64,000 bases of DNA, taken from NCBI GenBank assembly GCA_026419785.1, contig JAODTK010000721.1, positions 124,001 to 188,000 on the forward strand, written 5' to 3'. Shown here one piece after another: positions 954 to 64,000 of this stretch (position 1 is its first letter; each line of letters starts with the position of its first letter). The stretch comes from Sclerodactyla briareus. Taxonomy: Eukaryota; Echinodermata; Holothuroidea; Dendrochirotida; Sclerodactylidae. The translations under genes were made by a program, and so were the position numbers. Below the pieces are notes generated by a model, which was not told where the DNA came from, ran no database searches, and was given only the letters and a program-made list of their open reading frames with translations.

Positions 954-1045
954 TTGATTCCTGACGAAGTCAGAGGAATTTATGCAGTCACGTTGTTGGG
1001 TGTGTGTGTGTGGGCGTGGGGTTATGTGTGTGTGTGTGTGACGCC
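954..1045 (+). repeat. Head of composite repeat element: hairpin plus (GT)n
   Basis: A short hairpin (ATTCCTGAC, then GAA, then GTCAGAGGAAT) at about 954-977 is followed by GTCACGTTGTTGGG and two GT-rich runs at about 997-1040. The same order of parts (a hairpin around CCTGA/TCAGG, then GTCAC, then a GT-rich stretch) begins the copies at 19,946 and 28,706. I therefore read it as the left end of the element whose tandem units follow directly. Confidence 0.5.
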
Positions 1046-3012
1046 GAGCATGTAAACACGATAACTTGATCAGGTTTGGGTAGTCAGGAGTCAAGACTTG
1101 GTATGTTGGTTCCCCATGATGAGTACATGAACCCTATTGTTATGGAGTAAGGTCAGGTCTGGAGGTCATCTGAGGTCACCAGAGGTCAAGTCTAAAAACC
1201 TTGTATTAACACGATAAGTCCAGAATGGTTGGTTGAATCAAGTTGAAAATTAGTAATTAGGTGTGTTACGCTTTCTTATGGGGAGAGTACAGGAACCCTA
1301 TTGTTTTGGTTCAGGTCGGGTGTGAATTTTGGTCGAAAATAGGAAATTTGGGGGAATTCGATATTTTGGCAAATTTGGCTTTTGTAAACACGATAACTCG
1401 GACCCCATCTGGATGGATGTGAAGCTCATACTTGGTATGTATTTCCCCATGATGAGTACATGACCCCTATGTTTTGGGGTCCAGGTCAGAGGTCACCTGA
1501 GGTTCAAGTCTGAAACTTGTGAAAACGATAAAGTCCAGAATTGTTGGGTCTGATCAAGTTGAAATAGGGTTGTATAGCTTTCTGATGGGGAGTTTACAGG
1601 AACCCTATTGCTTTTGGTTGTCAGGTGAGTAGTGAATTTTGGTTCGAAAGACAGAAAATCGGGTGGAAAGAAAAATTGATATTTTGGCCAAATTTTGGCT
1701 GTAAACACGATAACCGACCCCACCTGGATGGATTGAAGGCTCATACTTAGTATTGTGTTCCCCATGATGAGTAACATGAACCCTATCATTTTGGGGTCAG
1801 CGTCAGACAGAGGTCTCATTCTGAGGTCACCAGAGGTCAAAGTCTGAAAACCTTGTAAACACGATAAGTCCCCAGAATTGTGGTTGATCAAAGTTGAAAT
1901 CCGGTGTAAGCTTTCTTTGGGGGGAGTTAAAGGGGGAACACTAGTGTTTCTGGTTCAGGTCGGGGTGAATTTTGGTCGAAAATAGAAAAATTTGTGAAAA
2001 ATGTGGAAAAGTTGATATTTTGGCAATTTTGGCTTGTAAAACACGATAACTCGACCACAACCTGGATGGATGAAGCTCAACTTGGTATGGGTGTTTCCCC
2101 TGGTGAGTACATGGACCCAATTGTTTGGGGTCAGGTCAAGGAGGTCATCTGAGGTCAACAGAGGTCAAAGTCTGAAAAAACTGTAAACACGATAAGTCCA
2201 GAAATGGGTGGTCTTGATTCAAGTTGAAATTGTGGGAGGTAAAGAACCCTTGTTTTTGGTTAGGGTCAGGAGTGGAATTTTGATCGAACATAGAAAATTT
2301 GTGAAAATTTGATTATTTTGCCAATTTGGGCTTGTAAAACCGGTTAACTTGACCCAACCTGGAGGAGTGGAAGCATCAACTTGGTGTGTTGTTCCCGGAT
2401 GAGTTACATGAACCCTTTGTTTTGGGGTCAGGTCAGAGGTCACCAGAGGTCAAAGTCTGAAAAAACATTGTAAAAAGATAAGTCCAGAACGGTTGTTGGT
2501 CTGATTCAGGTTGAATTAGGGTATAGCTTTTTATGGGGGAGAAAGGAACCCATATTGCTTTGGTCAGGTCGGAGGTGAATTATGGTCAAAATAGAAAATT
2601 GTGACAAATTCGATATTTGGCCAATTTTATATTATAACACGATAACTCGACCACACCTGGAGTGCTGAAGCTGATAGTTGGTATGTTTGTTACCAATGAT
2701 GATGAGACATGAACCCTATGTTGTGGGGTCGCTCAGAGGTATCTGAGGTCACCAGGGCTCAGGTAAAGTAAAAGTCTGAAACCGTGTAAACACGATTAAG
2801 TCCAGAACGGTTGGTCTGATCAGGTTGGAAATAGGTGTGTGGATCTTCCTTGTGGAGTACATGAACCCTATGGTTTTTGGTAAAGGGCGGGGTGGATGAG
2901 GCTCTCATACTTGGTGGGTGTATTCCCCATGATGAGTCATGACCCTATTGTTTTGGGGTAAGGCGGAGGTCATCTAAGGGTGTTACCAGAGTTCAAAGTC
3001 TGAAACTTGAAA
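1046..3012 (+). repeat. Tandem array 1, about 6.5 units of ~300-340 bp
   Basis: The marker GTAAACACGATAACTCGACC, with small changes, recurs near 1056, 1385, 1693, 2037, 2333 and 2634, so the unit is about 300-340 bp. Each unit consists of two related halves. One half starts GTAAACACGATAAGTCCAG and the other GTAAACACGATAACTCGACC. Both halves then run to a shared GGGGAGTACAGGAACCC / GATGAGTACATGAACCC block followed by TTGTTTTGGGGTCAGGTC. Units end in clustered AGGTCA half-sites, for example at 1483-1495, 1823-1838 and 2131-2167. Open reading frames inside the array are by-products of the repeat and are not called as genes. Unit differences are mainly 1-2 base indels. Confidence 0.9.
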
Positions 3013-3212
3013 AATTGAGTGTGTGCTTTCTTACCCAAGGGTACAGGAACCCAGAGTTGGTTGGTAAAAAGATAGGAAATTTGTCAGACGTTAGATTTTG
3101 TCCAAAGGAGCTGGTACTACCTCCATGTGCCGTGTGTGTCTGGCTATGGGTTGACAGAAACAGTCAAGGATCACTAGCCTTTGGTGTTCTGGTGTTGCAA
3201 TTCAGTAGGTAG
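3013..3212 (+). repeat. Conserved tail module of the composite element
   Basis: The array ends in a single-copy block containing CTGGTACTACCTCCAT, GTCTGGCTATGG, TTGACAGAAACAGTCAAGG and a run like ATCACTAGCCTTTGG. The same tail follows the arrays at 8,138-8,222 and 23,482-23,575, and appears on the opposite strand at 59,944-60,031. Its fixed place after the units marks it as the right end of the element. Confidence 0.75.
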
Positions 3213-4345
3213 AATTTTCGCAGCTGTTATTTAGTAAATATTGCAGCAGCGGGGGTCTAGGGCCCATAAAGTGTACTTATTTGCCAACAATAGGAGGAGG
3301 GTTTGAGGCCATTCTGAGGGCGCACCCATTGGGTTAGTGACCTCAAAACCCCCCTCCCCCCCAAGACAAATCTCCGGTTACACGCCTCTGTGAAAGGAAT
3401 TCACAATAGAATTTGTTTTCTCAGGTCGGACAATGTTACAAAATGTTCCCTTTGATTCAATGCGATGTAATTTCCTTTTCAAGTTACCGACACATGATTC
3501 ACCACCTTCATGATACTTTTTAGGGGAACGGCTTGTTTTGATAGGCATTCATCATTATGAGGTCATCACAAGGGCATTTTGATTGAAGTTAAGTGAGGTG
3601 CAGCATAGAAGTTGGTTTTACCAATTTATTGCGGGAAAATTGACCACTTGCTTTGGACCTCCCTTGCTCTTGCTAACCTGTGCAGTATGCCAAAATACTA
3701 GCTAGCTAGGATATGGACATAAATGTAGGCCTGAAGGTGGTCCTCATTGCCCACGCCAAACGTAAAACAAGCTGTAGTTTCAGGAGCGCATAATTCACTC
3801 ATTTTGACTACTAGAGCCCAAAGTGTTATGAGCGTGTAATTTTCCAGAACGATTTACAGTGATTTTGTGTGGAGCGCAGGGGGTTTTGGGCATTTTGCAT
3901 ACAAGAAGGTACTGCATTTTTTTATGGCATGAACTTCAAATGAAAAATGGCATGGACCATGAAAATATGGGCATGTCCATATTGACTATTGACCTGCATT
4001 TGGCCCATCATCAGTACTTTCAGTGGACTTTTACTCATCACAATTCCCTCCCTGGCCATTTCATCAGTAGTGCATGTGAAGGTATGAGCTCACAGACCTC
4101 AAACTCAGGACCACCATGGTCCAGCTGAAGAGTATGCTGATGTGCACCCAACTGCATGTGGGGAGTGTTAGGGGTTTGCCCAATGTGCATGCAATCGCAT
4201 GATTAGTGTTAGATTGATTAGTACACAATGGATGATGGAATTATGATGGCATATTATTCCGCTGAAAAATATGAGTTATACTAGCACCCTTCTTGCTCGC
4301 TGATGCTCCCGGCCCTAAATGTGGGGTTAATGAAAACCATGTCCC
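3213..4345. other. No recognisable gene
   Basis: A C-rich stretch sits at 3350-3362. A plus-strand open stretch at 3859-4128 has no family signature that I recognise. I see no splice-flanked coding pattern and no repeat shared with the rest of the window. Confidence 0.4.
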
Positions 4346-4960
4346 TAGCATGCAAGAAAGGTTACTGTTATTCGTGGTGTGATTAAAATGTCAACTTCAG
4401 TTTCCTGACAAAGAATTGTTGTCAAGGCTGTTTGCTGGTGAGACCTCACCTATAGTATTCTGTCCAAGTATGGAATCCATTTTTCTCGAAAAACTAGCAG
4501 GTAATTGAATAGTCAGGGGAGGGTCACTGAGATTACTTCACTGTCTTAAAAATTTACGGTGTATGAGGAAGAATGAGGCGCTCGCGTCTCTGATGAGCTG
4601 AGACGATTTGAGGTGATTCAATTCAGGTTTTTGGAATTGTTCATGGATTCAAGGGCCTTTCCTTCCACTATTCTTTGAGTTCTCCATAGTACCCCAATAG
4701 GGGTCATTGCTCAAGCTCGTGGTAAACCGATGTAGATGAATGCAGAAATATTCCCTCACAGAGAGTTATTAATGATTGGAAGTAGCCTTCCTGAAGCTGT
4801 TGCTCTGTCTGAGGGTGAATGTATTAAAGAACAGTTCACAGATTTATTTTCAAGGATTGTGGGGGTTTCATCTATTTTGGGATGGTGTGCCGTCAGGTCT
4901 TCTACTGAGGATTCTGTCCTCCTTACCCTTTTCCTAAACTAAACTAACTAAATAGCCAAG
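4346..4960 (+). mobile_element. CR1/L2-like non-LTR retrotransposon, 3' end
   Basis: Translated with frame changes, this stretch matches the C-terminal part of CR1/L2-type pol proteins. It shows LVRPHL followed by VQVWNPFFSK near 4438-4495, a region like the thumb/C-terminal segment up to 4700, and SLPEAVALSEGECIKEQFTD at about 4784-4845. The last corresponds to the family's WNSLP...VNAFK...LD block. It ends in AAACTAAACTAACTAA (about 4936-4952), a short terminal microsatellite typical of CR1-like elements. The same segment recurs at about 31,600-32,120, where more of the element remains. The 5' part, including the RT catalytic core and endonuclease, is missing, so this is a dead 5'-truncated copy. 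Several stop codons and frame changes are present. Clade assignment is an inference. Confidence 0.75.
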
Positions 4961-5440
4961 GATAGTGGCAGCATCTCATTTGGAACACCACACATCTAAT
5001 GAGAATGTTTTTTTTTTTTTTTTTTTGTTTTAGGGTCCTCTATCCAGCAAGCAAGGTCAATATTTCTAAAACAAGTTGATCTCTTTATCTCGGTGTCTTC
5101 CAGGTTAGAAGAGGCTTTTGCTGAGACAAAAGGACCACCCAACATGATCAAAACATGACTCTCTGAAGCCTGGTATAGTAAGTATCAGCATTGTGAGTTG
5201 TTTTTTTCGCAGCATGTTATAACCAAAATGGTTCAAAAAATGGCTGGAACTATATGGTGTCAAACCTGTACTATACAGAATGCAGGCATACCTACTCTCT
5301 CTCTATTATTTTTGAACAATAGTCATGATTTGCTTTAAACTACACAGTGAAACAAGGAAATATAAAAGGCTCACACCCCAGTTCTAGCATGTTGCCTTGT
5401 TGAGATATTTCAATTTACTTTTAGGAAATTCAAAGGAATT
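4961..5440. other. No recognisable gene; poly-T run
   Basis: A T run of about 20 bases lies near 5008-5026 and a short CT repeat near 5298. Nothing in the stretch supports a gene or an RNA. Confidence 0.45.
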
Positions 5441-5449
5441 TATGACATC

Positions 5450-6710
5450 AGGTGGCGATGAGCAAAGGCCAGCTCATAGGCCCTGCAACCCCCCCCTCCC
5501 CCCCCCCCCCCGAGCGGAGCCGGGGGTTGGGGGGGGGGTTGGGGCAGCCTAGCTGGAGAGGTAACCAATTGTAAGCTATAAGCATTGACGGATACCACGG
5601 GCCTTGCAAGGAAATTCTTCGGGGGGGCAGAGGGGGGGCCGGGGGGGCAGCGCGGGGGGGGGGGGGGGGGGGGGGTCCGTCTGGCACGCGCAACCCAACT
5701 GGTGGGTGTGGTGGTGAGGGCCATGATAAAAGGCCCACCACCCACAAAGTAGGCTAGCTTAGCTCCCGAGAACCACGCGGGAAATCTACGGCAAAATGCC
5801 AACGCCCATTATCCATTAAACATGAATGACCCGTGCACAGACATTTAGTTAGTGGGTGTGGCCCGCCAGACGACAATAACTGGGGCCAAAAAAAATGAGC
5901 TAGCTTACGCTCAGAGGTAACTAGTTGGACAAAGTAGAATGTTTGTGACACTCCAGCTATACACAAATGACCAATGCAAGACATTTTATGTGGTGGGATG
6001 GGTGCGCCACCAACGCCATACAAGATTCCCCACCCCTACAGCTACCCTAGGTTAGCTCGTGAGGTAACCAGTTGGAAAAAGAGAAAATGAGAGTGACATC
6101 CCAGCATAACAAATGACAATGACAGACATTTTAGGGTGGGTTGGGTGCGCCAGACGCCATAAACCTATCCGCACCCTTTCAGCTACACCTAGTTAGCTCT
6201 CGTAAGGTAACCATTGGGACAAAGTAGAAATTGTAGTGAACCACTCCCAGCTATCACCAAATGACAATGACAGACATTTACGTGGTGGGTGGGGAGCCAG
6301 ATGCCTAATATCACACCCATCAGCTATATAGGGGTGATGGTAACTAGCTGAAACATCAATAGTCATAAGGGGGGTGACGGTCACCCCATCTAGTGTGCGC
6401 TTGCGGCCGAACAGGCCACCTGAATCGTATGCGCGCCCAAGCTACCTGGGATCCTGGAACCCGACTCAGCGGATTTTGGGGCTGGATCTTGGGCAAACCC
6501 ACTTTAATATTCACGGCTTGGTGGCGTGTGGTTGCCGTTGGGAGTTGAGTTGAGTGGTGTTTGTAAAAACGTCTTGAACTAAAATAGCTAACCAAGTCGG
6601 ACATGTGTCTTTGAGCAAGTTTAATACATAGTAGGTTTGCATTCAAGGAGTGCAATGCGCCGTTGATTAACGGCAGTCCCTCGTGATATTGTTAAGCAGG
6701 CAAAAATCCA
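5450..6710 (+). repeat. Left arm of a foldback-like structure, ~145-bp subrepeats
   Basis: This segment matches the reverse complement of about 10,770-12,415. Landmarks shared in order from outside inward are GTCTGGCACGCGCAACC (5,680), GGTGGTGAGGGCC, TAGGCTAGCTTAGCTC, AAATCTACGGCAAAA, the subrepeat array, GGTGACGGTCACC, CCAAAATCC / GGATTTTGGGG and AAGTCGGA. Within the arm the block GAGGTAACCAGTTGGACAAA recurs near 5,555, 5,766, 5,914, 6,061 and 6,204, a period of ~145 bp apart from the G-tract-expanded first interval. Each unit also carries GACAGACATTTTA and GGGTGCGCCAGACGCCAT. Long C and G homopolymers occupy 5,490-5,540 and 5,640-5,676. No coding capacity is apparent. Confidence 0.8.
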
Positions 6711-6892
6711 CATATATTAAATGATATAATATACATTATAAAAGCCGAAGGAACAATGTGATACTTGTAGTTGGTCGGGACTTGTAAGTGAGTGGACAGT
6801 TGGTGCAAAAAAACGCTTCAGAGTGTATCGTTAATCTGGCAATTATCAAGGGATTTGTATACATTGACGCTGATTGAACAGTTTGACCATTT
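6711..6892. other. AT-rich spacer inside the foldback structure
   Basis: AT-rich sequence (for example CATATATTAAATGATATAAT near 6712) between the left arm and tandem array 2. No gene is visible. Confidence 0.4.
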
Positions 6893-8060
6893 TGTTAGAA
6901 CTGTTTAGTACGATAAGGCCCGAATGGTGGTATGACAAGTTGAAATTAGGTGTATGCTTTCTTATGGGGAGTACAGGAACCCCTATTGTTTTTGGTTTAA
7001 GGTCGGGGGGAATTGGTCGAAAAATAAAAGTTTGTGAAAATTTGATAGGTGGCCAATTTGGCTGTAAACACGCTAACTCGACCCCACCGGAGGATGAAGA
7101 TCATACTTGGTATGTGGTTGCCATGAGGAGTACATGAACCCTTTGTTTTGGGTCGGGTTCAGAGTCATTGAGTCACCAGAGGTAAAAGTATGAAAACTTG
7201 TAAACACGATAAGTCCAGAATGGTTGGTCTGATCAGGTGAAATTAGGTGTCTAGCTTTGTTATGGGGAGTACAGGACCCTCTATGTTTTTGGTTCGGTCG
7301 GAGTTTTTTGAATTTTGGTCGAAAATAGAAAATTTGTGAAAATTTGAGGTTTGTGGCCAATTTGCTGTAAACACCCGATAACTCGTCCCCACACGGATGG
7401 ATGAAGTCATTAAGTGGGATATGTGTTCCCTAATGATGAGTACATGAACCATTGTTTTGGGGTCAGGTCAGAGGTCATCTAGGGTCACCAGAGTTCAAAG
7501 TCTGAAAAACCTTGTACACACGATAGTCCTAATTGTTGGTCTGATCAAGTTAAAACTAGGTGTTTAAAAGCTTTATTATGGGGAGTACGGAAAACCCTAT
7601 TGTTTTTGGTTCAGGTCCGGAGGGAATTCTGATCGAAAATAGAAAATTTGTGAAAATTTGATATGTTTAGCCAGTTTGGGGCTTGTAAACATGGTAACTT
7701 GACCCCACCTGATGGATGAAGCTAATATTGGTATGTGTTCACCTTGATGAGTATATGAACCCTATGTTGGGGGTCAGGTCAGAGGTATCTGAGGTCACCT
7801 AGAGGTCAAAGTCTTGAAAACCTGTAAAAACACGATAAGTCCCGGAAGGGTGGGATCAGGTTGAATGAGGTGTGTATCTCCTTATTGGGAGTACATGAAC
7901 CCTATGTTTTTGGTAAAGGGGGGGTGAAGGAGGCTCATATTGGTTTGGTATTCCCCATGATGAGTACATCAACACTATTGGTTTTGGGTCAGGTCGGGGT
8001 CATCTAAGGTTACCAGGGTTCAAATTGAAAACCTTGAACAATTTTAGTGTGTAGCTTTCT
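6893..8060 (+). repeat. Tandem array 2, about 3.5 units
   Basis: Same unit family and strand as array 1. The marker GTAAACACGATAACTCG, varied, falls near 7061, 7368 and 7683, giving a period of about 310 bp. Units carry half-site clusters at 7464-7500 and 7763-7809. No head is visible. The first unit starts within AT-rich sequence at about 6893, so the left end of this copy is truncated. Confidence 0.88.
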
Positions 8061-8222
8061 TACAAGGGTACAGGAAACCATTAGTCGGTTGGTAAAGATA
8101 GGAAAATTTGGCGTACGTTATGTTGCCTATAATGATCTGGTACTATCTCCATTTGTCCGGGGTCTGGCTATGGTTGACAGAAACAGTCAGGAACACTAAG
8201 CCTTTTGGCTTCTGGTTGTCAT
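8061..8222 (+). repeat. Tail module of tandem array 2
   Basis: Matches the tail at 3,013-3,212: GATCTGGTACTATCTCCATT, GTCTGGCTATGGTTGACAG, AAACAGTCAGG, ACACTAAGCC and GGCTTCTGGTTGTCAT. It abuts the Penelope-like coding region with almost no gap. Confidence 0.75.
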
Positions 8223-9430
8223 AAATGGCCGTGAATTCAAAGCAGGTGCGTGAAGTATCAGATCAATGAGTTTGCGCAATGATATGGACGATATTTTCAG
8301 TTATTGTCAATCCAGTATAGGTGCGTTATCATTATAAACCTGGAATTGTGCATCGAGGGCCTGATCCTGTGGGCTGTTGGTGTACATTGATATGACATCC
8401 AGAGTAGCGAAAAATTAACTGGTAAAGTCAACACTGTAGGGTAAGGATGTGATTTGTGTCTTTCACATAAGTTCTTGCCGGTTAATATTGGAAGGAGGAA
8501 ATAATCCCCAAAGGCTGAGATTGGATCTGTGGGGGACCCGTTACCGCTTATGATGAGGCTGCCTGCGAATTTTGAGTTTATCGTATATCACTGGGTGAGG
8601 GTCGTATGGTGGTGGGGGGTGGGGGGAATTAGGGAGTGAATGTCTTTCGTCTATTCTTTGTTGGAGACGCATGTGAAGGCGGTTTTGAACACCACATCGG
8701 TGGTGGTGCTTTGGTATGCCTCGGAATTGTTAGTTCCTTTCCTTTGTGGTTTTTATATCGTACTGACAGCTTTCAGCTGGACGTGCGATCTCGGTTGATA
8801 ATCGGAGCATGAGTAGGCTATGATCGTCCTTTGTCTAGAAGGGCTACCACCAATGAAGTAAGTCATTTTAATGGAATTTAGAGCGATGCGTTCTGCTTTG
8901 TGGTATTGTTGCGTGCATATCTCGAAGGAATGCTAGCCATATCAGCCATCGTTGACTCCGGTAATCTCGAGTTCGAGGGGACCATGTGGATTGCATGTGG
9001 AATCTTTGTGTTCGCTGCTTCTTATGTAGGTGACCAAAACGAAGGCGCATTGATCTTGTGAGTTCCTTTATGGAGGGGAGAATGAGGTACGCTCGGTTTA
9101 TTGGTGTCAGTGATGAACTTTAAACCCCTTACCTAGGGCGATAACCTCATATTGGATAGAGGGCGAGATGATAGTTTAGGACATCTCTTTAAGTTAGTGC
9201 CTATTTTGCAGGTTTTGGCTGTGGCTACGTGTAGCCTGCGCTCCCTGAGAGGTTGATAACGATTACGGTTATATTTATTGATTTTTCCTGCTCTGTTAAA
9301 TTTCGTCGTTTGTTAGACGGGGTAGTGTTCTCTTTATATCTGACAGTCAAAGTAATGGCACACAGACACAGGATTGTTTGAGAGAGATTGGGATCATGCA
9401 ACCCTTTCTGGGTGCTTGGGTGGGCCTTTA
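8218..9430 (-). mobile_element. Penelope-like retroelement, reverse transcriptase part
   Basis: The minus strand, read with several frame changes, gives the diagnostic block ISGNGSPTDPISAF (about 8,560-8,510). Downstream comes a region with KNLCERHKSH and then a LDVISMYTNSPQDQALDA stretch (about 8,410-8,345), which is RT motif A of Penelope-like elements. A segment ending in FEF follows at about 8,230. Upstream there is VIVINLSGS (about 9,280) and a ALGKGFK block (about 9,140), like the conserved N-terminal part of these proteins. The coding region stops at the array tail at 8,222, so the catalytic ADD box, the thumb and any GIY-YIG endonuclease are missing. The element is dead as it stands. 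The family call is firm, but the frame breaks could be sequencing errors. Confidence 0.83.
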
Positions 9431-10100
9431 AAAAAGAGCCATTTGAGCACCAGAAAAAGGTCTGGCGCGATCTGCATTTGGATTGTAGGCTAATTGCCCT
9501 CCTGCCGACTTACTTCTGTGAGGTGTCGCTTTCACGTTCGGTCTCTCTTTGGAGGTTCGCAGAAGCTTCTGTAGCAGACGGTGGATTGACGTGATTTCTG
9601 TAGGACTCGATATCCTGTTGAGCCCTGTTGTATTTTCCTGAAGGGCTTTGTACCCACTTCGCCTGATGGAGAGCTCTTCGCGCCAGGATTCTGGACAGGC
9701 GCCGTTCTGCCAACGGGTGACAAGTCCCAAGACTCTGTCCTCATCAGTACAACGTAGATGCACCGGAGTGTTGGATAACCCTTGTTTACCCGAAGGGAGT
9801 TAGGGGTGTAGCCCTAGGAGATCTGACGGTTGAGTTTCTCAAGCTCCTTGGTAAGAAGAATACTCTTCTCCTGCAAGGCCGTTAGGTCGTCGGCGTGGCT
9901 CCGATTTTCTGGACGAGGAGTTGGATACGGCCTGGGACGTCTTGGTGACAAAGTCTCAAGGCCAGCGAAGGCTCTTAAAGGAAATACTGCTCCCAGATGC
10001 TCATATTCGTTACTAGGGAGGGGCAGTGTGGACACGGTAAGCAATAGTGGCCTTGCGGCGATACGTCTCGCCGACATATCGATATGTGGTGGCATTGATA
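9431..10100 (-). mobile_element. Probable N-terminal region of the Penelope-like element
   Basis: Minus-strand frames open here encode a basic, polar sequence (9,763-9,428). A second one (10,095-9,814) ends in a heptad-like stretch, LTALQEKSILLTKELEKLN, suggesting a short coiled coil. Position and strand fit the poorly conserved N-terminal domain of the Penelope-like protein that follows. I do not recognise a specific domain. It could instead be flanking sequence. Confidence 0.4.
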
Positions 10101-10330
10101 CTGTTTGATATCATTGTCCGATATACCGTATCGATATCAAATCGCATGGGGGACGGTATTTCGCTGCAACGTAATGGAGCTTTACATTCGTTTTACTAGC
10201 GGTCATACCTCCTCATGCCAGTACCCAGCCACACAAAGGCTACCACCACGTGAACAAATGTTCAAAGGATGGTTAGAACCCTGCCCGATTAACATTTCAC
10301 TGAAGGGAGTCACTAATTGACGGCACCTGA
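10101..10330. other. No recognisable gene
   Basis: Short stretch with repeated GATATC and CGATAT words near 10,077-10,140. A plus-strand open stretch has no recognised product. Confidence 0.35.
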
Positions 10331-10830
10331 GCATCTCGTGAACATACCAAAGTCTTTCAACCCAGCGTTTAAAGTTTTAGCATCCAAGGTGGCCAAATTG
10401 TTCAGTCGGCAAATATACACATATATTGTTCGCCGATAACGATTACCACCCTAAACTTTCACACATCTGCCCTCAACTCAGCGTGATAAGTTCTGTGCTT
10501 GAGATAAAGAGCTCACAAAGTGATCAAATTGTTCCCAATCTGGCTATACAGTACAGTTTAGCATGCTCAACAAATCACAGACGGACTATTGCTATTGACA
10601 AGGCGCATGGGAGTTTCTTGAGAGTGGTTTCCAAAGTGGTCAAATTTTAATGCTGTAACGATACCAATCACGAGCTTTCAAACATGCATGCTCAACTTGA
10701 CTTACTTGACCTGGGCTAATAAAAAGCTCACAAAGTATCAAATTGTTCAATCGCTATGCTAATTTAGCATGATTGACAATATCACAGACGGGTCATCGGA
10801 TAATACAGGTGCATGGCACTCATGAACACA
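10330..10830 (+). repeat. Short tandem repeat, ~215 bp period, 2-2.5 units
   Basis: The block AGCTCACAAAGTGATCAAAT occurs at about 10,510 and again as AGCTCACAAAGTATCAAAT at about 10,725. Both are followed by a TTTAGCATG word, ATCACAGACGG and GCGCATGG / GTGCATGG. A weaker third copy with CCAAATTGTTCAGTCGGC lies near 10,390. The last unit runs into the inner end of the right foldback arm. Confidence 0.65.
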
Positions 10831-12415
10831 ACACGGTTAGACTTAAGTCATCTATCCGACTTAGTCAAGCTAATCGGCCAGTGTTCAATTTGGCGTGACA
10901 AACACCATCACAATGGCCAACTCAAAACGGCAACTCACGCCACTAAGCCACAAATATTCAAGTGGTTTTGCCCAAAATCCAGGCCCCAAAATCGTTGAGT
11001 CAAGATTTAGGATCCGGTAGCTCCCATACCAATCCAGTTCTGTTCGCCGGCAAAGTGCAACATAGATGGTGACCGTCAACCCCCCCTTACTACAAGGGAT
11101 TTCCACTTTGTGAATCATGGAATTGCTTCCAGGGTCGTAGCCAAATAGGTAGTGGTTGTGTGGTTGGCACACTGCCACTTGAAACCATCTGAATGTTATA
11201 TCACGATTACCATGACAAAATTTATACTTTTTTCAACTGTAAGGTTTCACGGTGCTGCCAGTCATGAATATATGGCGCAAACTATTCTTACATTTCCCAC
11301 AGCTGCCTTATTTGGAAATCTCTCATAGATTGTGTGAAACCTTCTTACCTGCTTTTGCGGTTTGTCAGTGGCAAAACTAGTTGAATCATGAGATGACCTG
11401 AGAGTCAGTTCTGTCCAATCCAATTAACACTTGAATTGTTTTAGGTTGTTATACAGTACATTAATATGACCTGATGTAATGCCTTTTAAACACATACAAT
11501 TTCTTTGTCCTGTTAAGGGTTTTCTAACATGAGTGGGATTTCAGCTAGTGGAATCAAATAAAAACTATTGAACAATACGAGATTTTCAGCTGGGTTACCT
11601 ACGAAGCAACCTAGGTTAGCTCTATGTGAGAGGATTGTTGTTTTGGATGGCGTCTGGCACATCCTACCCACTACTTAAAATGTTGTCATTGGTCAACTTG
11701 TGATAGCTGGGAGGGTGCAACGAACGGTGTTCAAACTTTGTTCAGCTGTTACCTTACGAACTAACCAGGTTAGCGTCGGGGTGGGGGTATGTAGGCATCT
11801 GGCGCACCCAAGCCCACCACTAAACTGGTCGGTTCATGGTAACTTTTGATAGCTGGGAGTGTTACGATCATTTTCTACTTGTCCAACTGGTCCTTACAGA
11901 AACCTCGGTTGCTGTGGGGTTGGGGGGTATTGTATGGGTCTGGGCGCACCCAACCCACCACTTAAAATGTCTGTCCTTGGTCATTTGTGATAGCTTGGAG
12001 TGTCGAACATTTTTAACTTTGTTCCAACTGGTTACCTTACAAGCTAACACAAACCTAGGTTAGCTGTGGGGTGGGGGTTTTTGTATGGCGTCTGGCGCAA
12101 CCAACCCCACCACTTAAAATGTCTGTCTTGGTCATTTGTTGATAGCTGGGAGTTGTAAAGAACATTTTCTATTTTTTCAACTTGTTACCTCATGAGCTAA
12201 GCTAGCTAGTTTTTGGGCCCCAGTTATTGGCTTCGGCGAGAGCCACCCCACCAACTAAAAGGTCTGTCATGGGTCTGGCCATGTTTCATGAGATAATGCT
12301 GGACCTTTTGCCGTAGATTTCACGCGGTTACCTCGGAGCTAAGCTAGCCTAATTGTTTGACGCTTTTGTCTTGGCCCTCACCACCACACACACCAGAAGG
12401 TGCGTGCCAGACGAC
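10770..12415 (-). repeat. Right arm of the foldback-like structure
   Basis: Reverse complement of the left arm at 5,450-6,710. The ~145-bp subrepeat boundary (a TTACCT block, usually after an AACTGG-like run) recurs near 11,595, 11,744, 11,884, 12,027, 12,179 and 12,324. The inner part holds CCAAAATCCAGGCCCCAAAA (about 10,974) and GATGGTGACCGTCA (about 11,070), both mirrored in the left arm. Relative to the left arm it has one or two more subrepeats and an extra ~490 bp (about 11,095-11,590) with a small foldback of its own: GTAAGGTTTCAC at 11,239 facing GTGAAACCTTC at 11,333. No coding capacity is seen. Confidence 0.8.
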
Positions 12416-12686
12416 GATTATACTTGTCAACACAATATCAAGTTGAACATGGGAATAATGGGTTTCAAAGAGTGGAGGGGACGGGTGACAGTTGCAATTA
12501 AGCGATAAAACAGCAATATGGTGAGAATATTGTCTTGCCTCTGAATGTTTAGTTATAGGATGCATGCGTCCTCACAACCCGTACAGGCTGATATTCTACC
12601 TGTGGGTAGCATGAGACAATCAAGGAGGTACAGTATGCCTTGATTGTCTATCAGGATTAGAGCAAAAATGTCCTGTCTGGCTTCAA
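12416..12686. other. Spacer with a perfect 12-bp-arm hairpin
   Basis: No gene. AGACAATCAAGG at 12,614-12,625 and CCTTGATTGTCT at 12,638-12,649 form perfect 12-bp arms around a 12-base loop. Confidence 0.5.
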
Positions 12687-21800: not shown

Positions 21801-21939
21801 TTTACTGGGTATTAACTTGCGGGGGGAACGACATTATTTTCGGCTGATATTGTTATTCCCAATCCATAATGTTATTTCTCCATTCGCGAGAATCTGACCC
21901 CCATTACCAGCTGGCCAGTCTTCCACAAAATTGGAACTT

Positions 21940-23481
21940 TGTGAAAAGTTGATAACTTGGCTGGTTTTAGCTTGTTAACACAATGACGTCGATCCCACTG
22001 GATGGATGAAGCTCCTACGTGCATGTGGTTCCCCATGTGAACCCTATTGCCTTTGGGGGCCAGTCACAGGTCATAACATGAAGTGACCGAGGTCAAAGTC
22101 TGAAAAAACCTTGTGAACACGATAAGTCCATAATGGTGTTGGTCTGATCAGTTGAAATTTTGGTGTGTAGCTCTTTCTATGGGGAGTATAGGACCCTATC
22201 TTGATTTTTTGCTACAGGCTGGGGCTGAATTTTAGGAGGCGAAATAAGAAAAGTCGTGAAAAGTCAATCATATCTTGGCAAATTTTGGCTTGAGAACACG
22301 TTAACTCGACTCCACCTGGATGGCTGGAGCTTCATACATTGGTATTGTGTTCCCCTGAATTAGGACATGAACCCAATTGTTTTGGGGGTTCGGTTCCAGA
22401 GGTCCACCAGTCTTTTAAATCCCTGAAAACCCTGTGCACACGATAAGTCCAGAATGGGTTGGCTGATCGGGTTGCAATTAGGTGTGTATCTTTCCTATGG
22501 GGAGTACCTGAACTCTGTTGTTTTTTGTGTAGTCAGGGGTAAAATTTTGGTCGAAAATAGAAAATATGTGAAAAGTTCTTATTTTTGGCCAATTTTGGCT
22601 TGTGAACATGAATAACTCGACCCCACCGTGTGGACGGATCGCTCATCTTGGTATGTGTGTTTCCCCATGTGTTGATCCAATGAACCCTATTGTTTTGGGT
22701 CAGGTCAGAGGTCCCAGATAGGTCAAAGTCTGAAAACAGCCTTGTGAACAGACGATAGTCCCAGAATGGTTGGTCTAATCGAGCTCAAATTTAGTGTGTA
22801 GGCTTCTTGTGGGGAGTATAGGAACCTATTGTTTTTGGCATAGGTCGGGGGTGAAGTTTAGTTCAAAAAATGAAAATTTGTGGAAAGTCATAATTTGGCC
22901 AATTTTGGCTTGTGAACATCACTTGACCCCACCTGGGATCGGATGAATGTCAACTTGGGTCTTGTGTGTTCCCCATGTTGAGAGTTTCTTGAACCCAACT
23001 AGTTTGGTGTCAGGTCCGAGGTCAAAGTCTGAAAACTTTGTTGAACACGATAAGTCCAGAATGGGTGGGGGTCTTATCGGGGTTAAATTTGGTGTGTAGC
23101 TTCCTATGGGGAGTACATGAACCCTAATTGTTTTTTGGTATAGGTCCGGGGGGTGAATTTCTGTCGAAAATAGCAACCGTGAAAGTCAATTATTTGACAA
23201 ATTTTGGCTTGTGAACACGCTAACGTGACCCCACCTGGAGGATGAAGCTCTACACTTTGTATGGTTTGCTCCCCATTATGTGTACATGAAATTTATTGTT
23301 TTGGGGTCGGTCAGAGGTCATGCTGTGTCGTAAATCACCAAGGTCAATGTCTAGAAACCTTGTGAACGAGTCAAGTCCACCTAATGGGTTGGTCTGATCG
23401 GGTTTGAAATTTGGTGTGTAGCGTTTCTTATGGGGAGTAATGGAACCCTTTCATTTATTTTTTGCTACAGGCTGGGGGTGT
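21940..23481 (+). repeat. Tandem array 3, about 5 units of ~310 bp
   Basis: Markers like GTGAACACG-TAACTCGACC lie near 21,975, 22,291, 22,603, 22,912 and 23,212. In this array GTGAACAC usually replaces GTAAACAC, so it forms its own subfamily. Paired halves, the TTGTTTTGGGGTCAGGTC block and half-sites are present as in arrays 1 and 2. Confidence 0.85.
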
Positions 23482-34793: not shown

Positions 34794-36416
34794 TTAAACC
34801 ATGTCCATTGGGTCATAGTTGAATAGTTCGTAATCTAAGGAGTAGGGTTTTTGGAGCAGCTTTACATATTTAATCGGGATATTTGCAAACTCACAGGCAA
34901 TGGCAGATTCAGTTTTTGAAGAAGTAATGTTTGGAAGTTCGCACACTGCGGCTAAACCATACGCCTCGAGGAAGAAGGAGCCTCAATACCTGTTTTTTCG
35001 AAATGACCAATAAAGTCATACGGGATCTCACATACGTGTGATACTAAATGTTGTGGTAGAAAATGGTCAGAGATTTCATTCAGTTCGTCTCGTCCGACAT
35101 TTCGATAATGAAACGTATATATTCTAAGAGAGTAACATTGAGGAAGGGCCTTACTGCCATGGGCAGTGAGGCCACATGGGTTACTAGTGCCTCGGAGCCA
35201 GGCCGATATTCGACTCAAATTCCGACCATAGACCATGTTCCCATCCCGCTGATTAGCCCTGAAGTTCCGGAACTTGCTCATATATGCTGACAGTAGTCTC
35301 GATAACGGCTCGCGAACGAAAACAAACCTTGCGATAGCTCCGTAGTTTCCTCTCTCGTTCAGAGTCCTCCAGATTGGACAATCGCCAGTGGGGATCCTTC
35401 TTGCCATCCCAGCCATGGTAATCAAGAATGTTCCCGAATACTTGCTTCCTCCCTTCCCTCTTACAACTCACCTTGGGTATGAACCCAAACATAAACCTGC
35501 TATAATCATCTGTCATAACCTACGGATGAAATCCCGTCGCTGTGGGGTGAAGGTAAACGACCTATTAAGGCGCCCACAGACTTTTCTGATTTCGCTTGTC
35601 TCACTTTTTGTTCCCTCAAAATTTGTTCCGAAGAGTTGAAAGTATTGGTGGTGGTCGGACGCTCTGATAGTTGATGGGAGACCACGATGCGCAGAACGGA
35701 ATTGTTACTTCGAACTCCGAATTTCTTTGCTTTTCCTGCGGGTGAAGATAAAAAGAAGATATACTTACCTACTGATAATAATAATAATATTAATAATAAT
35801 AATGCATGGGGTATCATTATGTTTTGATGTTCACCTAGGCAACATTTAATTGCACAAACTGATGTACATGTGAGAAAACTTTTATCATGAAGACTGAAAT
35901 CAACCTACAAGGACATAATACTACTTCCCTACCAGACTTTCTTTGAAAGCTATAGGGTTGAATGGGGAGGGAGGGAGTATAACCAACTCCATCGGAGGTA
36001 ACTAACAAGGTCAATCTGGGGTCGAAAGCCATGTAAATGTGGCTCAGCTGTTCATGTAGGCAAGTACATGCCACTTGTACGTGGAACAGTAAGTGATAGC
36101 CACAAAGATGCAGGTCCGCCCTTTGGAGTTACAAATGTTTCGCGCCCACCCGAACCCAACTTGTGGCACTCAACGTATCAGTCTTGCTGTCATAAACTGC
36201 CGCTTCACTGTACCTCATGACAACTACGGTGTGAACACAGTAATTCGAACGAGTATACTCCCCACTTGCATTGCCTGTGGTAATCCCGACTTACCATGAG
36301 TGAACGATGGCCCCGGTACCTTGGTCCTGTTGGACAAATGTATCGTAACAATAAGTAGAATGGTCACAAACGAGCAACCAAACATTCCTCTGAAACAGGC
36401 GCCTGAATATAGCCAT
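34794..36416 (-). CDS. Carbohydrate sulfotransferase (CHST8-14/HNK-1 family), two exons
   Basis: Golgi type II membrane enzyme that transfers sulfate from PAPS to sugars of glycans. Exon 1 (36,416-36,295) starts MAIFRRLFQRN, continues into a hydrophobic signal anchor around LLIVTIHL then SNRTK, and ends CATG|GTAAGT. Intron 1 is 559 bp. Exon 2 (35,735-34,794) begins after CCGCAG. It shows FGFIPKVSC (5'-PSB site; the usual CTxWK reads CKREGRK here), FVFVREPLSRLLSAYMSKF (3'-PB site, about 35,330-35,274), HVCEIPYDFIGHFE (about 35,036-34,995) and the C-terminal YSLDYELFNYDPMDMV, then TAA. Length is about 354 codons, normal for the family. At least three frame changes in exon 2 and one in exon 1 have to be assumed. 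With all motifs kept, they look more like sequence errors than decay. Substrate cannot be told. The nearest relatives transfer to GalNAc or GlcA. Confidence 0.85.
35776..35805. repeat. (AAT)n microsatellite in intron 1
   Basis: AATAATAATAATATTAATAA and continuation, upstream of exon 2. A similar run (AATATATTAATAACAATAAT, 56,521-56,541) sits in the same place in the second gene copy, so it predates the duplication. Confidence 0.7.
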
Positions 36417-59943: not shown

Positions 59944-60031
59944 AGAAACCAGGAAAGTCAAGCGACTTAGTGTTCCGTGACTCTTTCTGGCAACTATAGC
60001 CAGACACAAGGACAAGGGTATTGTACCAGCT
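59944..60031 (-). repeat. Tail module of the composite element, minus strand
   Basis: Reads on the plus strand GAAACCAGGAAAGTCAAGCG, ACTTAGTGTTCCGTGACTC, TTTCTGGCAACTATAGCCAG, ACACAAGGACAAGGG and TTGTACCAG. This is the reverse complement of the tails after arrays 1 to 3. It shows that the right-hand array is the same element in the opposite orientation. Confidence 0.75.
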
Positions 60032-60111
60032 CATTATGGGCAACATAATGTCCCTTTCTTCCCAACCAACAAATAGGATTCCTATACTCTTGATGCAGAA
60101 AATAACACTTA

Positions 60112-63100
60112 TTTCAAGTTTTCAGACGGACCTCTGGGTGACCTTCAAATGAACTTCTGACTGACCCCAAAACAATAAGGTTCAGTTACTTAATCTATGG
60201 AGAAAAACTAAATAACCAAGTATGCGCTTCATCCATCGGGTGGTGATGGTTATCGGGTTTACAAGCCAGAATTGGCCGAAATAGTGAATTTCAAAATTTT
60301 ATATTTTTGACAAAAAATCACCTCGACGAAGCCAAAAACAATTAGGGTTCCTGTACTACATAAGAAAGCTACACACGAAATCTCAACCGATCAGACCAAT
60401 CATTATGGACTTAGCGTGTTCACAAGTTTCAGACTGACCTGGTGACCTCAAAGGAACTCTGACCTGACCCCAAAACAAAGGGTTTATGTACTGGATCATG
60501 GAGGAACCTCCATACCAAGTATGAGCTTCATCCATCCGGGTGTGGGTGAGTTATCGTGTTTACAATGCAAATGAGCCGAAATATTACTTTCACAATTTTA
60601 TATTCTTGACCAAAAATCACCCCCGGCCTGACCAAACAATAGGGTTCGTACTCCCATATAGGAAAGCTACACACGAATCCAACCAATCAGACCAACCATT
60701 TGGACTTATCGTGTTGACTAAAAGTAGAGCTCAATTCATCCAGGTGGGGTTGAGTTATGTGTGTTACAAGCCCAAAATAGCAAAATAGCAATTTCGAATA
60801 TTTTATAATTTCGCCCAAAAATGACCCCCCAATCAACACCCAAAACATTAGGGTTCTCCTCTCCATAAGAAAGCTACACACCAAATTTCAGGCCTGGACG
60901 GACCAACTGCTTTGGACTTATCGTGTTTACAAGATTTCAGACTTTGACCTCTGGTGACCTCAGATGGAACTTTGACCTGACCCCAAAACAATAGGGATCA
61001 TGTACTCATCATGGGGAACCACACATAACAAGTATGAGCTCAATCATCCAGGCTTGGTGGGGTGGAGTTAGGGTGTTTACAAGCCAAAAATGGCCAACAT
61101 ATCAATTTTCACAATTCATAATTTTCTCCAAAAAATGACCCCCATCAACACTCAAACAAAAGGTTCTTATACTCCCATAAGAAAGCGACACACCAAAAAT
61201 TTCAGCTTGATGGGACCAACTGTTTTGGACATATAATGTTACCCAAGGATTTCAGACTTGATACTATGGGACCTCAGAGACCTGACCTACCCCAAAACAA
61301 TAGGGATCCCGAACTCATCATGGGGGGGAAACACAGATACCAAGTATGAGATTAATTCATCCAGGTGGGGTTGAGTTAGGTGGTTACAAGCCCGAATCGC
61401 CAAAATAATCAGTTTTTGACTATTTCCTAATTCTCCCAAAAATGATACCCCACTCAAACCCAAAAAACATAGGTTTCTTCTTAACTCCCATAGAAAGGCT
61501 ACACACCAAATTTCAGCTTGACGGAACCAACTGCTTGGACTTATCGTGTTTACAAGGATTTCAGACTTGACCCTGGTTGACCTCAGATGACCTTTGACCG
61601 GACCCCAAAACAATCGGGATTCATGTTTCATCATGGGGAACACACATAACAGTATGAGCTCAATCATCCAGGCCAGGTGGGGGTGGGTTAGTGTGTTTAC
61701 AAGCCAAAATGGCCAAAATATAAAGTTTTGGACTATTTCCTAATTCTCCAAAAAAGACCCCCAAATCAACACTCAACACAACAGGGTTCTTATATCCCCA
61801 TAAGATAAGCTACACACCAAATTCAGCTGATGGGACCAACGTTTCGGACTTATCATGTTTACAAGGATTTCAGACTTTGACCTCTGGTGACATCAGATGA
61901 CCCTTGACCTACCCCCAAAACATAGGGATCCCTACTCATCATGGGGAACACATATACAAGTATGAGCTCACTTCATCCAGGTTGGGGTTATTTAAGTGTG
62001 TTTACAATCCCCAATCGGCAAATATGAGTTTTTGACTAATTTTCAATTTTCTCTCAAAATGACTCCATCAAACACCCAAACACTGGGTTCTTGTACTCCT
62101 CCCCATAAGAAAGCTACACACACCCAATTTCAGGTTGATCGACTAAACTGTTTTGAACTTATTGCTTTTAAAAGGATTTCCGACTTTGACCTCTGGTGAC
62201 CTCAGATGATCTGTGACCGACCCAAAAACAAAAGGATCATGTACTCATCATGGGGAACACCATACAAGAATGAGCTCAATCAATCCAGGTGGGGTTGATT
62301 GGGTGTGTTTTTACCATCCAAAATTGGGCAAAATATCAACTTTTACTATTTCCAATATGTCCCGAAAATGACTCCCATCAACACGCAAAATAATAGGGTT
62401 CTTGTCTCCCCAACGAAAGCTAACACCCAAATTCCATCTTGATCGGACACCTGTTTTTGGACTTATCGTGTTTCTAAGGATTTCAAGACTTGACCTCTGG
62501 TGACCTCAGAGGACCCTTGACCTTTACCACCAAACCAATAGGATCCCGACTCATCATGGGGACACAATATACCAAGTATGAACTCAATTTCATCCAATTG
62601 GGGTTGAGTTAGTGGTGTTTACAAGCCCAATCGGCCAAAATATCACTTTTTGACTCTTTCCTAATTTCTCCCAAATGCTCCCAATCAACACCCGAACATA
62701 GGGTTCTGTACTCCCCATAAGAAATCTACACAACCAAATTTCAGGTTGATCGGACTAACTGTTTTAACTTATTGGGTTGACAAGGTTTTCAGACTTTGAC
62801 CTCTGGTGACCACAGATGACGTCTGACCTGCCCCCCAAACAATAAGGAATCATGTACTCATCATGGGAACCCACATACCAAGTATAGCTCACTCCATCCA
62901 GGTGGGGGTGAGCGGTGTGTTACAATCCACAATTGGGGGCAAATTCAATTTTTTGACTATTGTCCTATTGTCCAAAAATGACTCCCAATCACACGCAAAA
63001 TAATAGGGTTCTTGTACTCGCCATAAGAAGCTACACACCAAAATCCATGCTTGATCGGACCAACTGTTTTGGACTTATCGTGGTTTTACAAGGATTTCAG

Positions 63101-64000
63101 ACTTTGACCTCTTGTGACCCTCATAATGACCCTTGCTTACCCCAAAACAATAGGGATCCCGACTCCATCATTGGAACGCACATATCAATTATGAGCGTCA
63201 TCCTTCCAGGTTGGGTTGAGTTAGTGTGTTTACAAAGCCCATCGGCCAAAATATCAGTTTTTGACTATTTCCTAATTTCTCCAAAATGGACTCCCAATCA
63301 ACACCCAGAACAATAGGGTTATTGTACTCCCATAGAAATACAACATACCAAATTTCAGGTTGATCTACTAACTGTTGGAACTTATTGTGTTTACAAGTAG
63401 TTTCAACTTTGACCTCTGGTGACCTCAGATGATCTTGACCTGACCCCAAAACATAAGGATCATTACTCATCATGGGGAACACACCGATCAGTCTGAGCTC
63501 AATCCATCCAGGTGGGGTGAGTTGGTGTGTTTACAATCCAAAATTGGGGAAAATATCAATTTTTTGACTATTTCCTAATATTCCCAAAACTGACTCCCAA
63601 TCAACCACGACACGCAAAAATAAAGTGTTCTTTGTCTCCCCATAAGAAGCTACACACCACCAAATTCCATCTTGATCGGACACTGTTTTTGGACTTATCG
63701 TGTTTAGCAAGGATTTTTCAGACTTTGGACCTCCGGTGACCTCATATGACCTTTGCCTGACCCCAAAACAATAGGCTCATGTAATCATCAGGGGAATACA
63801 CATGCCAAGTATTTCTCAATCCATCCAGGTGGGGTCGAGTTGATCGGTTTAGTGTTTAAAGCCAAAATTGACTAAATATACTTTTCACTACATTTTTCCC
63901 ATTTTTGACTCAAATACCATTCAACCCCCCATCAGACCAAAAACAATAGGGTTCCTGACTCCCCCTAAGGAGCTATACTACCAAAATTTCAACTTGAATC
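60112..64000 (-). repeat. Tandem array 4, ~13 units of ~308 bp, runs off the window
   Basis: The marker GAGTTAGTGTGTTTACAAGC, varied (the reverse of GTAAACACGATAACTC), occurs near 60,247, 60,550, 60,755, 61,066, 61,373, 61,685, 61,990, 62,297, 62,607, 62,910, 63,220, 63,517 and 63,838. Most steps are 297-321 bp; the one of 205 at 60,550-60,755 marks a shortened unit. From about 62,100 on, two unit types alternate. Units carry TGACCTCTGGTGACCTCAGA and TGACCTTTGACC (61,587). The array continues past 64,000, so its head is not in the window. Confidence 0.92.

Follow-up and report, generated by a model that had tools for sequence, protein, structure and literature searches.

Positions 5,450–12,415 of the window (the whole 64,000-nucleotide stretch of Sclerodactyla briareus DNA analysed here) contain two long inverted arms that enclose a satellite array and part of a reverse transcriptase (RT) gene. 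The initial annotation had described two arms with ordered landmarks, and this is borne out by self-BLAST of the window: 5678–6307 matches 12413–11792 in inverted orientation (75%, 660 columns), and 6366–6564 matches 11089–10898 (75%), both far beyond chance. The arms are indeed built of ~145-bp subrepeats, which TRF reports as arrays at 5914–6305 (period 143–148) and 11643–12190 (period 141). The satellite array and the Penelope-like remnant described in the interior are likewise both real (6910–7914; 8216–9336, minus strand). The copy is organised as follows.

5512–5913 (+): left arm, outer (flanking) domain; terminus at ~5512, matching the termini of other copies; G-rich expansion at 5620–5676 (TRF)
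5914–6305 (+): subrepeat section of the left arm, about 2.7 units of ~145 bp (TRF, profile hits)
6366–6564 (+): inner domain of the left arm, in inverted orientation to 10898–11089 (self-BLAST); present in other copies
6565–6898 (+): innermost 3'-side part of the family interior, corresponding to L014 interior 4227–4567
6900–8215 (+): satellite (~310-bp) and tail, an independent insertion and not a family part (comparison with other copies)
8216–9336 (−): putative Penelope-type RT remnant, N-terminal part, catalytic half lost (comparison with other copies)
9337–10897 (−): 5' leader plus the inner portion of the interior; type-2 subrepeats at about 10656–10897
9423–9440 (−): sequence resembling the histone-mRNA 3' stem-loop, preceding the RT start (family consensus and alignment)
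10898–11089 (−): right (5') arm, inner domain (self-BLAST)
11093–11592 (−): ~500-bp 5'-arm segment without counterpart in the other arm; collinear in L014, L020 and L032
11593–12205 (−): subrepeat section of the right arm, about 4 units of ~145 bp (TRF, profile hits)
12206–12430 (−): right arm, outer domain, without the last ~77 bp

The left terminus of this copy lies behind a C-rich run. Its right arm ends ~77 bp before the family terminus, and no target-site duplication can therefore be read for the window copy. The catalytic half of the RT is gone, and where the satellite stands, ~1.4 kb comprising RT gene and sequence downstream of it has been lost.

A genome search with the outer left arm (40 of 78 candidates scored) identified at least 28 loci outside the window, all of which were retrieved. 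Both outer ends are present as an inverted pair at 17 of the 28, so the proposed search for other arm pairs succeeded and the arms do not occur only singly. The same RT region is present, within different flanks, at 20 of the 28 loci, including 13 of the 17 with paired ends. At eleven loci, one of the outer ends is absent from the sequence examined; L023, L025, L026 and L035 run to a contig end, and L032 is cut inside an arm. Family edges are abrupt: on L014, 27–28 of 28 other sequences cover the inside and 0–1 the outside. RT-bearing copies are mostly about 6.8–7.5 kb in size, and the interior consensus shows a deeper inverted symmetry than had been noticed in the window, pairing 12–292 with 4509–4223 and 367–1030 with 4436–3792 (69–70%). 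A search from the RT side (123 candidates, 40 scored) gave at least 40 RT loci, 16 of 40 coinciding with arm matches. Copies without the RT were also seen. L018 and L036 (type B) have the same arms around another interior, with no coding signal seen, and L009 and L010 are deletion derivatives, of which L010 has no RT and L009 retains 208 bp of it. Such copies agree with mobilisation of a class-II element in trans. A tree of 19 sequences is star-like (terminal branches sum to 2.94, internal branches to 0.156) and records an amplification burst.

The satellite behaves differently. Its 314-bp unit also occurs in the window at 1096–3192, 21927–23449 and 59955–63996, and among the family copies examined it lies inside the arms only in the window copy, although L036 has similar stretches of 110 and 358 bp. 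This near-absence from other copies, together with the other window locations, rules it out as a part of the element. The interior had been explained either by two unrelated insertions or by movement of the whole as a unit; the second holds for the RT core and the first for the satellite. The arms and RT core are one mobile unit, into which the satellite was inserted locally at a later time.

The arms were correctly said to differ in subrepeat number (1–6 profile hits per arm, partial hits counted). For the ~490-bp difference between them, which had been put down to unequal exchange, that origin is not supported: the segment at 11093–11592 belongs to the family's 5' arm and is collinear in three other copies, with part of it missing in L029. 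For the same segment, 14–20 of 28 compared sequences cover L014 2301–2700. Over the outer 250 bp, the arms within one copy are no more alike than those of different copies (0.902 versus 0.900; p=0.20, 17 copies). The idea that the subrepeats copy a binding site at the terminus was rejected, as the similarity is only weak (p=0.019).

Family termini read TAGA(G/C)CGGGAGCCC. Flanking 3-bp target-site duplications were assessed in 15 of the 17 two-ended copies, L011 and L029 being left out for a damaged terminus. Exact matches were observed in 6 of 15 copies, whereas the 210 mismatched pairings yielded 5 (p<5e-5; 0 of 20,000 permutations), and the signal is confined to k=3 (identity 0.69 versus 0.31). 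The remaining nine copies have no exact 3-bp match, and the 6/15 comes from a second placement of the termini, chosen after the flanks had been seen, the first having given 4/17. A search for an empty site gave none. With arms that recur as inverted pairs and a 3-bp duplication, the structure is of foldback type, as initially suggested.

Scans of family copies and consensus frames gave no transposase. For type A, 133 of 143 listed ORF pieces were scanned, and 12 families match one piece each (best E=0.0051), with neither a transposase nor an RT among them. Because this single-ORF-piece scan missed the RT itself and is weak on decayed copies, it may have missed a decayed transposase. Type B (L018, L036; 40 of 45 pieces) gave two single weak matches only, and L021, L009 and L019 (32 of 77 pieces) gave five, which we regard as chance matches (best PF03324, E=0.002). 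Class-II movement of the family thus rests on its termini and target-site duplication.

In contrast to the remnant in the window, the family majority sequence encodes a recognisable RT (Pfam RVT_1, E=7e-8, above its cut-off) with YRDD present, and the RT was therefore functional until close to the burst. Penelope-like elements encode a telomerase-like RT, and from its motifs the present one is putatively of this Penelope type. Canonical Penelope elements carry a GIY-YIG endonuclease, and endonuclease-deficient members exist; here a scan of five consensus frames (three downstream, two of the three upstream) gave no GIY-YIG at E up to 5. Many Penelope-like elements have a hammerhead ribozyme, for which nine loci and window positions 5400–12500 gave no match at E up to 1. 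There are no direct pLTRs around the RT gene in L014, L020 or the interior consensus, where direct repeats lie only inside the arms. The lack of flanking direct repeats and of a hammerhead argues against an ordinary Penelope layout. A third-position excess was seen neither among shared changes nor in four supported two-copy clades (low power). In these clades, with background subtracted, change at coding sites was about half as frequent as elsewhere (28.5 of 5297 versus 80 of 7868 site comparisons), which may reflect constraint, though without a third-position excess.

In the family consensus and alignment, a sequence resembling the histone-mRNA 3' stem-loop precedes the RT start by ~75 nt. 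Rfam Histone3 matches it below the gathering threshold in two of five loci scanned; the window copy has no Histone3 match at E≤1, the window as a whole has nothing at the gathering threshold, and four further loci have no Rfam match even below it. Other matches below gathering were mir-5736 at 9400–9462 (plus strand, E=0.049), which overlaps the stem-loop-like sequence, freshwater-1 within 5400–12500 of the window (E=0.87), and SAM-III in L011, outside the element.

Given the abrupt common edges, paired arms, 3-bp duplication, common RT core, star-like tree and internal deletions that are observed, the stretch is probably an old and by now decayed copy of a multicopy DNA transposon of foldback type, with a Penelope-type RT gene in its central domain, that amplified in a burst and was moved in trans by a transposase we infer to be encoded elsewhere. 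Such a transposase would bind the arm ends, and perhaps the subrepeats too, and the element would then be excised and inserted elsewhere at a cut staggered by 3 bp. The RT gene would have been captured before the burst, mainly as cargo and not as the driver of movement. The losses in the window copy (part of the RT, the right tip) and the satellite insertion came afterwards.

It is unlikely that the family is instead a Penelope-like retroelement, with arms that are unusually long inverted pseudo-LTRs, moved by reverse transcription and with inverted ends arising from self-priming. The core does encode an RT, and Adineta vaga has Penelope elements with an RT between inverted pLTRs, one of them with a host gene there; however, in the passages cited, those pLTRs are around 200 bp, the elements contain an endonuclease, and duplications are 8–10 bp or none (PMC3846280), as opposed to 3 bp here. 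In the present family, moreover, both ends are alike and present at 17 of 28 loci, so there is no general 5' truncation; the same arms surround a non-RT interior; and the scans and comparisons made gave no direct pLTRs, GIY-YIG or hammerhead.

It is judged quite improbable that the element is a class I/class II hybrid, cut and pasted by a transposase while its own Penelope-type RT, expressed from an RNA whose 3' end is processed by a histone-type signal, helps to replicate it by reverse transcription. The RT might, for example, extend the foldback hairpin or copy RNA ending in the stem-loop. The RT lies between the arms in most copies examined and was recognisable at the burst, the leader has the stem-loop, and coding sites changed less than others in the four clades, but the third-position excess is missing (low power) and RT-less copies exist. 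A coincidental nest of unrelated arms, satellite and Penelope-like element, or an assembly artefact, is very improbable as an account of the whole. Coincidence holds for the satellite, but for the arms and RT core it is ruled out by the joint recurrence of the two, within differing flanks, at 20 of 28 loci.

The preferred reading, a DNA transposon with an RT gene inside, can be compared with known systems. The suggested placement with FB, Galileo and TU stands as a structural resemblance but not as membership, since no transposase was found and duplication length differs. FB foldbacks make 9-bp duplications; FB and MULE foldbacks combine these with a MULE transposase, whereas the present family has 3 bp and no such transposase was seen. 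Galileo (P superfamily) shares very long TIRs of varying length, with ~140-bp direct repeats in one copy, but the portions cited give it 7–8-bp duplications and a P-type transposase (PMC4168063); the present family has 3 bp, and the ORF pieces and consensus frames scanned showed no transposase of that type. Tetris of Drosophila virilis is similar in its TIRs (up to 1.7 kb, with an outer and an inner domain plus internal tandem repeats of ~220 bp) and in that no transposase copy is reported in the sections cited, but differs in its 8–10-bp duplications and lack of conserved ORFs (PMC4079207). Tm1, a Mutator/Foldback family of root-knot nematodes, likewise has composite inverted repeats with internal repeats, several classes with common ends, and one non-autonomous class with a histone-hairpin motif, according to the passages cited (PMC3169594). 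Those histone-hairpin elements are about 0.9–1 kb without coding potential, against ~7 kb with an RT gene here, and Tm1 has 9-bp duplications, ~14-bp subrepeats and one known transposase-coding (Phantom-like) copy, unlike the 3 bp, ~145-bp subrepeats and absence of a detected transposase in our family (PMC3169594, same passages). Zator makes 3-bp duplications in the part cited (PMC10045372), a likeness in duplication length alone and a lead only. Among the matches listed in a literature search of titles and abstract starts, none was a transposon with a Penelope RT and inverted-repeat ends.

A histone-type stem-loop is present here in a foldback family other than nematode Tm1, hinting that foldback elements may gain, or profit from, an RNA-processing signal more than once. 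Transposons fall into RNA-copied and DNA-cut classes, and this family mixes both, with ends and a duplication of the DNA kind and a putative Penelope-type RT as its central gene. Modules of the two classes travel together in a multicopy foldback family, which gives a specific case for asking if the RT is mere cargo.

The inverted arms with subrepeats proposed in the initial annotation are real. When the window is compared with itself, 5678-6307 matches 12413-11792 and 6366-6564 matches 11089-10898 in inverted orientation at ~75% identity, and both arms contain arrays with a unit of 141-148 bp. The left terminus of the window copy lies at ~5512, and its right arm stops at ~12430, ~77 bp before the family terminus. 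The main features of this copy, and their counterparts in two loci outside the window (the reference copy L014, and L011), are:

6900-8215, 310-bp satellite, between the window arms
8216-9336, minus strand, RT-gene remnant, between the window arms
9423-9440, minus strand, histone-mRNA 3' stem-loop-like sequence, then CAGAAAGGG, upstream of the RT start
L014 4525-4569 and L011 5188-5234, histone-mRNA 3' stem-loop-like sequence, then CAGAAAGGG, upstream of the RT start

Window 5450-5800, searched against the genome from which the window comes (319 Mb in 3171 contigs), gave at least 63 matches (40 of 78 candidates scored). Those listed outside the window fall at 28 places, all of which were fetched (L009-L036). 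Among the matches listed, the inverted pair of outer ends is complete in 17 of 28 loci, and the RT region (at least 1376 of 2040 bp) is present in 20, including 13 of the paired loci, an association judged from loci found by arm search. Of 40 RT loci scored in a search with the RT side, 16 coincide with arm matches. The shared region starts and ends abruptly against L014. Paired copies measure 3.0-8.5 kb, and most with a near-complete RT region measure 6.8-7.5 kb (L013 and L015 are shorter, L011 longer). Arms and RT core are a family, rather than a nest, and the ~490-bp arm difference, noted earlier, is not peculiar to the window copy when other copies are compared.

Eight of the 28 loci lack the RT region. 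L009 (3 kb, 208 bp of RT remaining) and L010 look as if they arose by internal deletion. In L019, L021, L023 and L034 a single end is seen, in L023 because its contig ends there. The remaining two, L018 and L036, form a second subfamily (L018 1789-7812, L036 1389-8157) in which the family's arms enclose another interior, common to both, where no coding signal was seen. This interior holds a ~0.9-kb repeat of very high abundance; a query with the interior gave 2235 first-look candidates, of which 40 were scored. L030 has left ends at 1476 and 3364 that point the same way, are separated by ~1.9 kb and have similar flanks, possibly a tandem duplication of an arm. At G000:C29:4625-10882, two RT-core copies lie in the same orientation, 4.7 kb apart.

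It had been left open whether the RT and the satellite entered the loop separately or moved with the arms. The RT came with the arms as one unit; the satellite is a later arrival. The window copy, which groups with L032 (support 0.992), lacks L014-interior 2809-4226, and the 310-bp satellite unit occupies its place. Since this kind is also present at three further window places, the two guests have different histories. The ~310-bp satellite (1096-3192, 6900-8215, 21927-23449 and 59955-63996, both orientations represented, with a shared tail at 8115-8211/60051-59955) looks like a mobile satellite-carrying repeat. Elsewhere in the window, an ORF at 34952-35467 (minus strand) matches Sulfotransfer_2 (PF03567, E=3.9e-12).

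In the 4.6-kb interior consensus (majority of 19 interior sequences), inverted symmetry of the arms extends inward to 1030/3792, enclosing a unique centre of ~2.76 kb (1031-3791). An ATG at 1652 is followed by the RT gene across several consensus frames; single copies differ in indels there, so the shifts between frames are, at least in part, artefacts of the consensus. RVT_1 (Pfam) matches a piece of the consensus above its cut-off (E=7e-8), and NCBIfam and PDB gave only distant RT relatives. The DKG segment, YRDD, LDRNSAHP..KGE segment and KHWHL thumb are presumably Penelope-type motifs. No GIY-YIG or transposase was found in the scanned consensus frames, nor in 133 single ORF pieces, a scan that likewise missed the RT itself.

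The consensus carries ACGGCTCTTTTTAGGGCCACCA at interior 1555, ~75 nt upstream of the RT start. This differs at 2 of 22 positions from the canonical metazoan histone-type signal, and none of 150 first-order Markov sequences had fewer than 6 mismatches. The stem-loop is recognisable in most of the 19 aligned sequences; L022, L024 and L028 lack half or all of it, and L017 has an altered form. Histone3 (Rfam) matched below gathering in two of five loci (L014, E=0.001; L011, E=0.012), with no match in four other loci or the window copy. The nematode foldback family Tm1 likewise includes a histone-hairpin class (PMC3169594).

The family termini read TAGA(G/C)CGGGAGCCC. With a first, local terminus placement, flanking 3-mers were identical in 4 of 17 copies. 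A second placement, picked after the flanks had been seen, aligned the whole terminal sequence (n=15; L011 and L029 left out for a damaged terminus) and gave exact 3-bp flanks in 6 of 15 copies versus 5 of 210 mismatched pairings, with identity of 0.69 versus 0.31 (0 of 20,000 permutations). Flank lengths of 4-10 bp showed no exact match and no notable excess in these copies. Short fixed-length duplications are a mark of cut-and-paste transposase, not of target-primed reverse transcription. A Penelope element with inverted pLTRs seems unlikely.

Identity to the consensus ranges from 0.80 to 0.88 among the 19 sequences (window copy 0.817). Their tree is star-like (terminal branches 2.94, internal 0.156), the mark of mostly one old burst. 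The two outer ends were already alike at the burst, and no later homogenisation of them was detected. Third-position excess is absent among changes common to copies and in four supported two-copy clades (24, 17 and 15 changes at positions 1, 2 and 3; background ~2.3 changes per position per pair). After background subtraction, the rate of change at coding sites in these clades was about half that at other sites (28.5/5297 versus 80/7868), which counts against simple cargo. A working hybrid, to which the fewer coding changes might point, seems unlikely. The family is probably a foldback-type DNA transposon, whose elements would be mobilised in trans by a putative transposase and whose RT gene would have been captured and carried mainly as cargo.
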